A DNA stretch of 46,175 bases, from IMG/VR virus record IMGVR_UViG_3300046530_000038, positions 1 through 46,175 of that record; one strand, 5' to 3'. Every line of letters begins with the position of its first letter. The first letter of the stretch is position 1. Shown here piece after piece: positions 6,106 to 12,541 of the stretch. A program made the position numbers and the translations under genes. This DNA comes from a virus. The notes under the pieces were generated by a model. The model was given only the letters and a program-made list of their open reading frames with translations, was not told the DNA's origin and did not search any database.

Positions 6106-6822
6106 ATGATCGGAACAAAGCTTTATGGGAAAGGACAGGTTTATGCTGTGATGTTTTCTGATGGCTGGATAAAGATCGGAAGAGGTCGAGATGCATCGAA
6201 AAGAATAAACAGCCATATAAGCGTTTCAAAAATCAGGGGTGCTAAGCCTGTAAAATCAATAATCTCAGGAGAGTTGCTTCATACGCATTCCGCAGAAAAA
6301 AGATTGAAAGATTATTGTGCTTGTATTTGCACAGAAAGGCATGGTGGGGAGTGGTTCAAGGGCGTATGTATTGAAAAAGTCTCAGAAATAATCCGAGTTG
6401 AATTTCCAGGTGATGACCAAGAGGAAATTATGAAAGCAATCTCGGAGCAGGCTGAAAGAATTAAAACAGGATTTAGCTATGAATTCCTTGAGGAAGATAG
6501 AATTCAAAAATTATCTGACCGTGATGAAAAGTGGGCAACATCCATGTCTCATGCGACTGTTATGAAAAGCATGTACACCAACTGGATGTATGGTGGTGAT
6601 CTTTTCATGCCTATAGATAATGGCGCGTCCAAGTTCGAGCTGTTTTCCGCTCTGGCTCTATACAGTATGAGCACAGAAGAAATAGGCGATGCCTATGTAA
6701 CGATCAGTGATGACCCTGACGAGGGGATATCTTTTTTGATGAGCGCTTCGCAAAAGTCAGCAAAAGCTATACTTGACTCAAAGAAAATAGAACCTGAAAA
6801 GGCCCTTGAGGTGCCGGCGTGA
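6106..6822 (+). CDS. T5orf172/MUG113-like (GIY-YIG superfamily) protein
   Basis: 238 aa. Residues about 7-100 fit the T5orf172 type of GIY-YIG fold: GQVYAVMFSDGWIKIGRGRDASKRINSH, a conserved E in HTHSAEKRLKDY, and GGEWFKG. The family is associated with nucleases or DNA-binding proteins of phages. The C-terminal 130 residues are unrecognised. ATG 6106 follows GGGTGAG; an in-frame start at 6031 lies inside the leader RNA. The gene is much more AT-rich than its neighbours and has its own promoter and elaborate leader, the marks of a recently acquired moron. Catalytic competence is uncertain. Confidence 0.7.
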   Translation: MIGTKLYGKGQVYAVMFSDGWIKIGRGRDASKRINSHISVSKIRGAKPVKSIISGELLHTHSAEKRLKDYCACICTERHGGEWFKGVCIEKVSEIIRVEFPGDDQEEIMKAISEQAERIKTGFSYEFLEEDRIQKLSDRDEKWATSMSHATVMKSMYTNWMYGGDLFMPIDNGASKFELFSALALYSMSTEEIGDAYVTISDDPDEGISFLMSASQKSAKAILDSKKIEPEKALEVPA

Positions 6823-7598
6823 GCGAATTCAATCTTATGCGCGGCGATTGCCTGGAGGTGATGCGGTCATTGCCAGATGCCAGTGTTGATATGGTGCTAG
6901 CCGATCTGCCTTATGGAACGACCCAGTGCGCATGGGACACTATCATCCCGCTCGAGCCGCTCTGGTTGGAGTACTTGCGGATCGCCAAGCCGGAAGCGGC
7001 AATAGTTCTTTGTGCTGCGCAGCCGTTCGCGTCTATGCTGGTTGCGAGCAACCCAAAGCACTACAAGTACGAATGGATCTGGGAGAAAGGGGCAGCAACC
7101 GGATTCCTGAACGCCAAGAAGCAGCCGCTGCGCGCTCATGAAAGCGCCCAGGTCTTCTACCGCAAGCAGCCGGTATACAACCCACGCATGACAACCGGAC
7201 ATGAGCGCAAGACGTCGAAGCGGAAGTCGGTGGAATCCGAGTGCTACGGGAAGGCACTGAACCTCACCGAGTACGACTCAACCGAGCGGTACCCGCGTTC
7301 AGTGCAGTTCTTTTCAAGCGACAAGCAGACCGCCAGCTACCACCCGACTCAAAAGCCAGTCGCCTGGATGGAATTCTTAGTCAGCACCTACTCAGATGAG
7401 GGCGGCGTAATTCTGGACAACACCATGGGAAGCGGCACTACGGGTGTTGCCTGTATGAATTTGCGTAGGAAGTTCATCGGCATCGAACGCGACAGCGGAT
7501 ATTTCGAGACAGCCCAGCAACGAATCGCCGATGCGATCATCGTCCGCGACACCCCGGTACCGCAAATCGATATGTTCAAAGAGGCCGATCATGGCTGA
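6819..7598 (+). CDS. DNA adenine/cytosine-N4 methyltransferase, beta class
   Basis: 259 aa. The catalytic motif IV is DLPYG (residues 29-33, a DPPY variant), near the N-terminus. The AdoMet-binding motif I, NTMGSGTTG, comes near residue 210, preceded by HPTQKPV. This IV-before-I order defines the beta class (N6-adenine or N4-cytosine). No partner nuclease is adjacent, so it probably protects phage DNA or marks it. ATGA-coupled to the T5orf172-like gene. Target sequence unknown. Confidence 0.85.
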   Translation: MSEFNLMRGDCLEVMRSLPDASVDMVLADLPYGTTQCAWDTIIPLEPLWLEYLRIAKPEAAIVLCAAQPFASMLVASNPKHYKYEWIWEKGAATGFLNAKKQPLRAHESAQVFYRKQPVYNPRMTTGHERKTSKRKSVESECYGKALNLTEYDSTERYPRSVQFFSSDKQTASYHPTQKPVAWMEFLVSTYSDEGGVILDNTMGSGTTGVACMNLRRKFIGIERDSGYFETAQQRIADAIIVRDTPVPQIDMFKEADHG

Positions 7599-8031
7599 CC
7601 TAATGCTTCGCAACGAGTCAGACCGTACTCGTCTGATCGGCTATCTGACCGCGCTGGACCTGTCCAAGCCTCGCAAGCTGACAATCGTCGAAGTCCGCAG
7701 CAAGCGCAGTGACGCGCAGAACAAAATGCTGTGGATGTGGAACGGCCTTATCCAGACGCATCTGCGCGAGTCTTTCGGCCAGCTCGCCAGTTCCGAAGAG
7801 TGGCACGAGATTCTGGTATCTAAGCTGTGGCCGGCCGAGGTTCATCCGGTCGAACTACCAGACGGCACCCGGTACCGCGTCGGCCGAGCCAAGACCCGCA
7901 AGTTCACCATCGCGGAGATGACTCAGTATCTTGAACTGCTGGACGCCTACTGTGCAGAGCACTTGCAGCTGTTGCTTCCGCACCCTGATGACCTGATGTA
8001 CGCCATCTACGGCGAGCGGAGACCATCATGA
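7591..8031 (+). CDS. ninB: NinB recombination protein
   Basis: 146 aa with the NinB pattern: LRNESDRTRLIGYLTALDLSKPRKLTIVEVRSKRSDAQNKMLWMWN, then SSEEWHEILVSKLWP, and KTRKFTIAEMTQYLELLDAYCAEH near the end. NinB (Orf of lambda) works in phage recombination as a recombination mediator that acts with SSB-coated DNA. The start at 7591 overlaps the methyltransferase end by eight bases. NinG follows with a four-base overlap, as in lambdoid nin regions. Confidence 0.9.
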   Translation: MADLMLRNESDRTRLIGYLTALDLSKPRKLTIVEVRSKRSDAQNKMLWMWNGLIQTHLRESFGQLASSEEWHEILVSKLWPAEVHPVELPDGTRYRVGRAKTRKFTIAEMTQYLELLDAYCAEHLQLLLPHPDDLMYAIYGERRPS

Positions 8032-8624
8032 CCCTGCAAGCCAAGAAGCCGCGCCCGAAGAAATGCCGGGTCGAATCATGCAGAACCTTATTCGTCCCTG
8101 CTCGCATGGGGCAGGCGGTTTGCTCGCCGGCCTGCGCGATTATTGATGCGCCGAAGAATCAGGATAGGGCGAAAAAGGCACTCGTCCAGGTAGAGCGCAC
8201 GCAGACCAAAGAGCGCAAGGAAAAGCTCAAGACGAGATCCGACCACATGAAGGAATGTCAGAGGTCGTTCAACGAGTTCATCCGCTGGCGTGATCGTGTA
8301 GCCGGCCATCCTTGCATCTCAAGCGGGCGCGCCCTGGATTGGTCCGGGAACATGACCGATTGCGGGCACTATCGCTCGGTTGGCTCATCGCCACATTTGC
8401 GCTTCGACCAGCGCAACGCCCATGCCCAAAGTAAGCACGATAATCAGTTCCTCTCTGGTAACGTCGTGGCCTACCGCATAGGGCTGATTGATCGCATAGG
8501 GCTAGAGGCGGTCGAGGCGCTGGAGTGCGACCAAGAGCCAAGGAAGTATTCGACGCAGGATCTGATTGATATGGCGGCCCAATACCGGGCCAAGACTCGC
8601 GAACTCAAAAGGACCACGGCATGA
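8028..8624 (+). CDS. ninG: NinG/Rap-type recombination endonuclease
   Basis: 198 aa. The N-terminal zinc-binding region (C-x4-C...CSPAC, residues about 13-36) leads into a basic helix. Then come the family blocks CISSGRALDWSGNMTDCGHYRSVGSSPHLRFDQRNAHAQSKHDNQFLSGN, typical of NinG. Lambda Rap is a structure-specific nuclease that resolves recombination intermediates. It probably acts with NinB and the ERF/YqaJ pair on the other strand. Confidence 0.9.
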   Translation: MTLQAKKPRPKKCRVESCRTLFVPARMGQAVCSPACAIIDAPKNQDRAKKALVQVERTQTKERKEKLKTRSDHMKECQRSFNEFIRWRDRVAGHPCISSGRALDWSGNMTDCGHYRSVGSSPHLRFDQRNAHAQSKHDNQFLSGNVVAYRIGLIDRIGLEAVEALECDQEPRKYSTQDLIDMAAQYRAKTRELKRTTA

Positions 8625-9230: not shown

Positions 9231-9246
9231 AGGTTCTCAAAAGGCC

Positions 9247-9276
9247 TTCACAGAGTTAAGCTGGTTGTTCTATACT
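9247..9276 (+). promoter_or_regulatory. Promoter of the large noncoding RNA
   Basis: TTCACA (9247-9252), an 18-bp spacer and TATACT (9271-9276) predict a start near 9283, at the edge of the structured region. Confidence 0.55.
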
Positions 9277-9282
9277 GGATCA

Positions 9283-9747
9283 GTGCAGATGTTATGGATT
9301 CCCTGTAAAGGGTGTGCCGTCCCGTGACCCACAAGCGCACTTGAACGATAAGAGTCGCCATCTGCCAAGATCAACCAACGCCAGCGACGCGGAGAACAGC
9401 TTCCGCCAGCCCGCACATGCGGAATCGTCTTTATCTGACAGCTCTCCCCCAGTCAGCGAACACCCACCCAGACGTAAAACTCTGGATTAGCCAGGGAGCA
9501 CGCAGGGAGGGCTGCCAGATGCAGATGAATGCGCAGGCTGATGCGCGCAGACGCAATCAGGAGGACGGAGCAAGACGAGGCTCTATGTTGCCAGCACATG
9601 CGCGACTATCGTCGATAAGCGCGCTGGCTAAACCTGAAAGGCCGGAGATCAGCGCCGGCCATCTGCATCAATCCGGGAAGCCTGAGACAGTTCGGATCAA
9701 AGCTACAGTCAGGCACAAAAGCCCCGACATAAAAACCGGGGCTTTTT
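9283..9747 (+). ncRNA. Large structured noncoding RNA (~465 nt)
   Basis: This stretch lacks a credible gene and is full of pairings. 9285-9291/9359-9365 encloses a GUAA-loop hairpin (9301-9312) and 9313-9317/9335-9339. Next come 9389-9393/9402-9406 and 9411-9414/9419-9422, then 9439-9448/9505-9514 (10 bp, one wobble) around 9468-9472/9481-9485. 9518-9527/9660-9669 (10 bp, perfect) encloses the bulged stem 9590-9595/9623-9628 with 9607-9610/9614-9617, and the hairpin 9641-9645/9655-9659. Then 9680-9685/9709-9714 precedes a terminator. Promoter at one end and terminator at the other support an independent RNA. It resembles the large ornate phage RNAs in style only; no named class is recognised. 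Confidence 0.75.
9717..9747 (+). terminator. Rho-independent terminator of the large RNA
   Basis: AAAAGCCCCG (9717-9726) pairs with CGGGGCTTTT (9737-9746) across a ten-base loop, giving a GC-rich stem with flanking A and T tracts. Between here and the next gene at 9840 I see no further clear signal. Confidence 0.85.
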
Positions 9748-9839
9748 CATGCCCGTTAATCTGCCAAGTAGCATATTGACATGACGAACGAATCCAGAGC
9801 GCATACAATCAACCAATACGCGAATACGAAGGGTCGAGA

Positions 9840-11866: not shown

Positions 11867-12541
11867 ATGGAAAACTTCAAAAACGGAAAGGTCAGCCTGC
11901 TAAACGGCGACTGCATGGACTATCTAAAATCGCTGCCTGATGACGCGTTTGATTTGGCTATTGTCGATCCGCCCTATGGAATAGGCGAAAGCGGAGACAG
12001 GAACAAATCTCGCGGCAAGCTGGCGACTGCAAAAGACTACAAGGCATTTTCGGGTGGGGACAAGAGTGCGCCAGACCCGGAGTACTTTGTCGAGCTATCA
12101 CGAGTATCCAAAAACCAAATAATCTGGGGCGCCAATCATTTTGCTGACCGCTTAGTAAGCCCGTCATCCCCGTGCTGGATCGTATGGGATAAGCAAACCG
12201 GGGAAAGTGATTTCGCTGACTGCGAACTGGCTTATGCCAGTTTTAAAACTGCAGTCCGTAAATTTACGTTCAGGTGGTCAGGGATGCTGCAGGGGTGCAT
12301 GAAGAACAAAGAGGTGCGCATCCACCCGACCCAAAAGCCCGTAAAGCTTTACGAATGGTTGCTTTCGAACTACGCAAAAGAAGGCGACCGCATTCTAGAT
12401 ACGCATCTCGGTAGCGGATCTAGCGCAATTGCTGCGCACTACGCAGGGTATGAGTTTGTCGGGATAGAGATGCACCCTGATTATTATGCGTCGGCTATTG
12501 ATCGATTCCAGCGAGAGACATCGCAAATGTCTTTTCTGTAA
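11867..12541 (+). CDS. DNA methyltransferase, beta class (moron between terminase genes)
   Basis: 224 aa. DPPYG (residues 34-38) is motif IV. HPTQKPVKLYEWLL precedes motif I, LDTHLGSGSSAIAA, near residue 180, so it is an N6-adenine or N4-cytosine enzyme of the beta class. AAAGGGA precedes the ATG. It differs clearly from the methyltransferase at 6819 in sequence and composition. Its own promoter and leader, and its place inside the usually uninterrupted terS-terL pair, mark it as an insertion. It probably protects DNA before packaging. Confidence 0.85.
   Translation: MENFKNGKVSLLNGDCMDYLKSLPDDAFDLAIVDPPYGIGESGDRNKSRGKLATAKDYKAFSGGDKSAPDPEYFVELSRVSKNQIIWGANHFADRLVSPSSPCWIVWDKQTGESDFADCELAYASFKTAVRKFTFRWSGMLQGCMKNKEVRIHPTQKPVKLYEWLLSNYAKEGDRILDTHLGSGSSAIAAHYAGYEFVGIEMHPDYYASAIDRFQRETSQMSFL

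Follow-up and report, generated by a model that had tools for sequence, protein, structure and literature searches.

A structured RNA core with kissing loops, exchanged as a cassette between phages of Proteobacteria

The gap between the nin genes and the holin-like genes of a viral DNA of 46,175 nt (IMG/VR record IMGVR_UViG_3300046530_000038, positions 1 to 46,175; this whole stretch is called the window below) contains an RNA core of about 150 nt that belongs to an undescribed family of structured phage RNAs. Compensatory changes among its relatives show that the fold, including a kissing pair between two hairpin loops, is under selection, and the comparison of loci shows the same core moving between unrelated phages as a cassette. 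As its biochemical function we infer, tentatively but in preference to the other explanations considered here, that the core is an RNA scaffold for passengers, variable and in some cases derived from tRNA, within noncoding transcripts of phages; in this it would be comparable to the phage RNAs GOLLD and ROOL, with which it is not homologous.

Relatives and distribution of the core

A BLAST search of the whole region against phages returned one 40-nt match, in an intergenic gap of Pseudomonas phage Jeremy, and this gap led to phages PS-1, AH02, Aurca01, and ZC03; in all of them the matching piece lies outside the annotated protein genes. Two short strings recur in these relatives, TGAATGCGNAGGCTGATNCGC and CCGGAGATCAGCNCCGGCCA, and their flanks pair with each other in every sequence type. 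Used as exact patterns, each has at least 120 matches in viral contigs, and TGAATGCGNAGGCTGATNCGC has at least 119 in bacterial genomes, from many Gamma- and Betaproteobacteria. In searches with R1, a covariance model built on an alignment of 48 diverse cores, 16 of 398 Pseudomonadota genomes had a match at E up to 0.001, roughly half of these matches being strong. At E up to 1e-6, the core was present in 23 of 149 Pseudomonas genomes (~15%) and in 11 of 149 from the enterobacterial family of locus L212 (~7%).

The core was found in more than 120 viral contigs, and we put its carriers at hundreds of unrelated phages of Proteobacteria. They include HK620, the P1-like RCS47, the Ackermann-type T751, the N4-like IME11 and ZC03, DS8, IME207, Tyrion, and the BASEL phages Bas77, Bas79, and Bas80. 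Cores can also stand in tandem, with three copies in RCS47; in the P1-like phage-plasmids L280 (6525-7351) and L327 (2586-3413) three tandem cores directly follow tRNA-Asn and tRNA-Thr. The reverse-strand genes annotated as plp/upl in RCS47, which may be spurious, overlap part of the tandem cores. Long stretches almost devoid of annotated genes were seen in an Ackermann-type phage (L329:1472-4809, with one core found) and in phage vB_EcoM_P54 (L331:1151-4442, with none found), and other structured RNAs may lie in them.

Covariation of the fold and the kissing pair

The core comprises, in this order, an outer stem, hairpin H1 (GCGN-AGGCUGAU-NCGC, with a loop of 8 nt), an unconserved middle, and hairpin H2 (GCCGG-AGAUCAGCR-CCGGC, with a loop of 9 nt), and the two loops kiss through 6 bp (GCUGAU with AUCAGC). 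The outer stem, both hairpins, and the kissing pair are all present in the window, whose R1 score is given in Table 1. For the analysis of covariation, the 106 R1 matches from 100 loci were aligned, which gave 105 distinct sequences. Double compensatory changes were found in 18 of the 24 pairs; shuffles had a mean of 8.6, and none of 500 reached 18. Cells with double changes numbered 278 as against 84 in shuffles, and 94.6% of the cells were paired. An earlier note, made from the letters of the window, had proposed an undescribed structured noncoding RNA of ~465 nt, with the alignment of homologues as a check. This alignment upholds a structured RNA with strong covariation, but reduces the conserved unit to the core, the 5' module upstream of it being partly shared.

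The loop-loop pairing was tested directly by searching for altered H1 or H2 loops. An altered loop was often matched on the opposite loop, as in L362, L361/L363, L369, L375, L376, L384, L391/L393, L408, and the second copy of L060, and the compensated pairs were GCCGAU/AUCGGC, GUUGAU/AUCAAC, GCUCA/UGAGC, GCUAAU/AUUAGC, GUCGAU/AUCGAC, and GGUGAU/AUCACC. Three of the six kissing pairs carry double compensatory changes. Only the nested stems, and not the kissing pair, guided the alignment, so these counts are independent of the model structure. Uncompensated single mismatches occur in L149, L379, L380, and the group with AUAAGC; one kissing pair (position 32/276) is broken in 8 of 102 sequences, mostly as GCUGAU with AUAAGC and without compensation, which counts against a scaffold.

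The window locus

The ninB and ninG genes, recognized by PHROG matches (7531-8028 and 8028-8621), lie upstream of the locus (9231-9839), and downstream are small holin-like genes followed by that of the terminase small subunit, in agreement with the position between nin genes and holins described earlier. The features of the locus are collected in Table 1. Its closest relative, L387, has the same locus, with common upstream DNA, promoter, terminator, and downstream DNA.

Table 1. Features of the noncoding region of the window and what they rest on.
Feature	Position	Strand	Basis
Sigma-70-like promoter, TTCACA-18-TATACT	9247-9276	+	10/12 matches; identical sequence heads the tRNA operon of L387
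Predicted noncoding transcript, ~466 nt	9282-9747	+	Promoter, terminator, folding energy (z = -3.85 versus dinucleotide shuffles), no conserved ORF
5' domain, closed by GCAGATG (9285-9291) / CATCTGC (9359-9365)	9285-9365	+	Sequence; comparison with L387
5' module AACCAACGCCAG...CGTCTTTATC	9373-9435	+	Common to other pseudomonad members; L387 match
Predicted hairpin domain adjoining the core, stem 9439-9448/9505-9514	9439-9514	+	Pairing probability ~1.0 (unconstrained ensemble)
Conserved core of the family, ~150 nt	9518-9669	+	Model R1, 89.2 bits, E 1e-24; 106 relatives aligned
Outer stem, 5' arm (partner 9660-9669)	9518-9527	+	Nine modelled pairs, eight changed on both sides
Hairpin H1, kissing loop GCTGAT 9537-9542	9531-9546	+	Stem 99.8% paired, double changes in 3/4 pairs
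Hypervariable middle (passenger slot)	9547-9640	+	Median 74 nt, range 19-254 nt (206 cores)
Hairpin H2, kissing loop ATCAGC 9648-9653	9641-9659	+	99.2% paired, double changes in 4/5 pairs; kissing pairs compensated
Outer stem, 3' arm	9660-9669	+	Covariation
Intrinsic terminator, GCCCCG/CGGGGC + T5	9717-9747	+	Read from sequence; kept in L387

The two ends that the note had recognized, a promoter-like start and a strong terminator, are both kept in L387, where the letters of the terminator stem differ and the pairing is retained. Promoter-like sites of this quality numbered 2, with 0.5 expected from shuffles; the terminator had been overlooked by the terminator scan because its loop has 10 nt. 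Judging from these sequence features, a stand-alone noncoding transcript is plausible. The note had also seen no credible gene here and had named a conserved, translated protein as evidence to the contrary. No such protein was found: neither PHROG nor a tblastn search of phages gave a match for the longest ORF (9417-9779), the ORFs of this region are likewise without PHROG or tblastn relatives, and frames are not conserved over the family.

Among the structural elements noticed earlier, the GUAA tetraloop hairpin is present at 9301-9312, the long-range stem of the hairpin domain is present as a prediction, and the second long-range stem, a perfect one of 10 bp, turned out to be the covarying outer stem. 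At least ten pairings had been called consistent, and here both long stems exist but not all of the pairings are compatible or conserved. The arms of the 5' domain are also able to pair with the outer stem of the core, and thermodynamics alone favours GCAGATG with 9660-9666; the outer stem was preferred because the comparative evidence overrides this alternative. Model R1 found no second copy of the core above noise in the 5' half of the window. Two proteins with DNA-methyltransferase-like motifs (ADLPYG, VDPPYG), encoded at 6819-7598 and 11867-12541, flank the nin-lysis-terminase region.

Association with tRNA genes

From promoter to terminator, L387 contains tRNA-Leu, tRNA-Met, tRNA-Asn, and one more tRNA match, as well as the 5' module and the core, whose H1 and H2 enclose another tRNA match (Rfam). 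Its 5' module is 98% identical to that of the window over 65 nt (window 9372-9435); the string AACCARCGCC of this module was found in the upstream regions of 13 of 206 cores. The 5' domain of the window stands where L387 has its tRNA genes and is possibly a decayed tRNA. Since L387 has a tRNA operon at the same locus (L387:5855-7363, minus strand), the window locus probably was such an operon once or is an alternative form of it. L387 also encodes, between its core and the terminator, a small protein that looks exported (MIIKRCLSFIGLALAMCLGS...).

Across the family, tRNA genes lie within 1.5 kb of 25 of 206 cores (~12%) as against 1 of 143 control stretches, and 38 of the 40 core-adjoining tRNA genes are on the strand of the core. 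A T-arm is found in the middle of 9 of 206 cores (~4%), compared with none in the reverse complement and 0-3 in shuffles, and ARAGORN recognizes a tRNA-Pro in the middle of the L167 core. Counting against a scaffold, most passengers in the slot are not recognisably tRNA, and the folding of the core middles is hardly stronger than that of shuffled sequences (mean z -0.77; control -0.37).

In the scaffold that we propose, the RNA would work as a structure and not as a message. The kissing loops would lock the core, so that the passenger, whether tRNA, decayed tRNA, or another hairpin, would be held and protected, and the carrier would be an abundant phage noncoding transcript, with a role comparable to that of GOLLD and ROOL. 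The scaffold may act as RNA alone or with host factors, because no protein is constantly linked to the core: we found no conserved protein partner, and 148 of the 268 loci of a gene-cluster survey had none of the ten labelled gene clusters. In the window, the tRNA passengers would have been lost or replaced, with the scaffold, the 5' domains, the promoter, and the terminator remaining.

Genomic context and a possible role in cis

Cores are placed on the sense strand of operon leaders or beside phage tRNA genes. In temperate phages the survey found two main positions: between CI-like repressor and N-like genes, in the pL leader from nutL to N, and after Q, NinG, or RusA and before holin or endolysin, in the late leader that follows Q/pR'. 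Neighbours show a pronounced sense-strand bias (repressor 58:10, N-like 18:0, NinG 15:0, holin 13:0, endolysin 18:2). A role confined to late control or lysis timing, as suggested earlier, finds no support, as the same core is found in early pL leaders and tRNA clusters and is also carried by lytic phages, N4-like and Ackermann-type ones among them.

The main rival to a scaffold, which we regard as possible though doubtful, is a cis-acting leader element: the core would form the tip of a stem that serves processing or regulation, of the RNase III type known from the lambda N leader, and would tune processing, stability, antitermination, or translation of its own transcript. Its best argument is the pL position. 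The order CI-like repressor, core, N-like antiterminator occurs in 13 loci, and in several inspected ones carrying nutL-type boxA/boxB the core lies 3' of these and ends shortly before the N ribosome-binding site. Here the core sits in the 5' UTR of N and replaces the apical part of the lambda regulatory stem, which suggests action in cis and counts against a scaffold. L027 and lambda have common stem arms (GGCTTTGGGGTGTG / CACACCACCAAAGC) around different inserts, and both the sense-strand bias and the position of the HK620 core, between pR'/qut and tQ, also speak for a leader element. However, lambda has the stem without the core, the cores of the window and L387 have a promoter and terminator of their own, other cores lie in tRNA clusters and in lytic phages outside any N or Q context, and the distance from core to next gene varies. 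A leader element and a scaffold are compatible and not mutually exclusive.

Several candidate elements around the core were rejected. Lambda is not a hidden member of the family, its insert being unrelated; this insert, in the lambda N leader (L405), may be another exchangeable cassette. The boxA-like string GCTCTTT/GCTCTTA, found 15-30 nt upstream in 26 of 241 loci, is not a general part, because enteric members pair it in a stem (GGTAAGAGCA/TGCTCTTTCC). A consistent terminator downstream of the core was dropped on a weak excess (57 of 191, versus 49 in the reverse complement). The GGTAAGAGCA/TGCTCTTTCC stem recurs 20-110 nt upstream of the core in L045, L092, L326, and other enteric loci; its 3' arm resembles boxA, and its flank CACAACA could pair with the 5' arm of the outer stem. 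The Rfam families DUF3800-VII (L382:3057-3141, minus strand), Proteo-phage-1 (L004:2772-2851), and isrJ (L212:3517-3593) lie close beside cores and may be parts of the same transcripts.

Exchange of the core between phages

The exchanged unit runs from TGAATG to GGCCA and is set in different complementary docking stems. In the L074 core it is precisely this unit that is matched in phages of E. coli, Klebsiella, Enterobacter, and Pseudomonas, whereas outer stems and flanks are different. In 23 locus pairs a shared core (at least 85% identity) is combined with different outer stems and unrelated upstream DNA, 7 of 9 locus pairs with the same upstream DNA carry different cores, and five examples of exchange were compared letter by letter. 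Recombination at the conserved ends would suffice for such exchange, with transposition as an alternative.

A selfish or mobile cassette, with conserved ends serving exchange (recombination or transposition of some kind into stem-loops) and an RNA fold merely tolerated in leaders, seems to us unlikely. It would accommodate the exact boundaries at the outer stem, the TG..CA ends, the exchange across unrelated phages, and the tandem copies, but H1, H2, and the kissing loops carry compensatory changes, which speak for selection on a folded molecule, and the strong sense-strand bias also argues against it. No transposase or recombinase was seen among the genes that commonly adjoin the core, and no special enzyme is needed for exchange if the conserved 20-nt ends recombine. 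An empty-site search with the joined flanks of L045, a single query, gave no match across the junction.

We would put forward with some reserve that the scaffold is a mobile RNA module, locked by its kissing loops and traded as a cassette, which brings exchangeable passengers, tRNAs included, into major phage operon leaders, RNA-only and analogous to GOLLD and ROOL yet independent of them.

Search for known families and coding potential

The Rfam check proposed in the note returned nothing at gathering score in the window and only low-scoring chance matches at E up to 10. The covariance models of GOLLD (RF01998) and ROOL were without a match in the window (E up to 10) and in the loci of 35 relatives (gathering score), and a known family was rejected as the identity of the core. 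A literature search with the conserved strings and relevant phrases found no description; the supplementary tables of large RNA-motif surveys, outside its scope, may hold an unnamed entry, and a survey of 26 genomes from 2021 mentions neither phage nor Pseudomonas. Covariation, the lack of an Rfam match, and the absence of the conserved strings from the literature searched bear out an undescribed structured RNA. It is very improbable that the core is a divergent member of a known phage RNA family such as GOLLD or ROOL: the common habits (phages and prophages, tRNA islands, a conserved 3' part, a variable 5' part, and a tRNA in the linker; PMC12286853) stand against the missing matches and the difference in size. 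A conserved small protein or overlapping gene in place of an RNA is hardly conceivable: some frames through the core are open and a 120-aa ORF in the window spans it, but a protein-coding family is refuted by even motif spacing over the three frames (63/79/64) and by only 52, 3, and 3 open cores of 206 in the three frames tested, there is no family or tblastn match, and some members have T at position N of H1, which puts a stop into the MNA reading.

Comparison with known phage RNAs

The core is carried by laboratory-tractable phages (HK620, RCS47, Bas77, Bas79, Bas80, IME11) and absent from the RNA catalogues searched. Its places include the control points that are best studied in temperate phages (pL/nut/N and Q/pR'/lysis) as well as tRNA clusters; its function is therefore directly testable. 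Our results suggest that phages trade RNA domains as cassettes.

The put antiterminator RNA of HK022 is a structured RNA of lambdoid operon leaders; it resembles the core in location and is set apart by its make-up of two hairpins that have neither an outer stem around them nor a kissing pair. In pL-type members such as L027 the outer stem has the same place, between nutL and N, and the same arms as the stem of the lambda N leader, whereas the core of the window follows ninG. Proteo-phage-1 (RF03044), isrJ (RF01393), and DUF3800-VII (RF02967) are phage-associated small RNAs that adjoin the core in PS-1, L212, and L382 and do not overlap it beyond model tails; the Proteo-phage-1 model has no match at the core itself, being only a neighbour in PS-1. 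The Pas sRNAs and STnc100 are likewise prophage RNAs in regions with tRNA hits, but they are short base-pairing sRNAs, PasA having 84 nt (PMC13192938), and STnc100 had no match in the loci scanned with Rfam.

The closest likeness is to GOLLD and ROOL, phage- or prophage-borne structured RNAs of unknown function near tRNA islands, with kissing loops; in GOLLD the 3' region is conserved, the 5' region varies, and the linker sometimes contains a tRNA (PMC12286853). The core family shares the location in phages and prophages near tRNA genes and, in some members, has a tRNA in the slot. It differs in the absence of a sequence or covariance match, in size (~150 nt versus ~600-800 nt), in its occurrence here in phages of Proteobacteria, and in its exchange as a cassette from one docking stem to another; it may be a Proteobacterial counterpart to these RNAs. 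That phages carry large RNAs of unknown function close to tRNAs is already known, and the novelty here is an RNA family with cassette behaviour.
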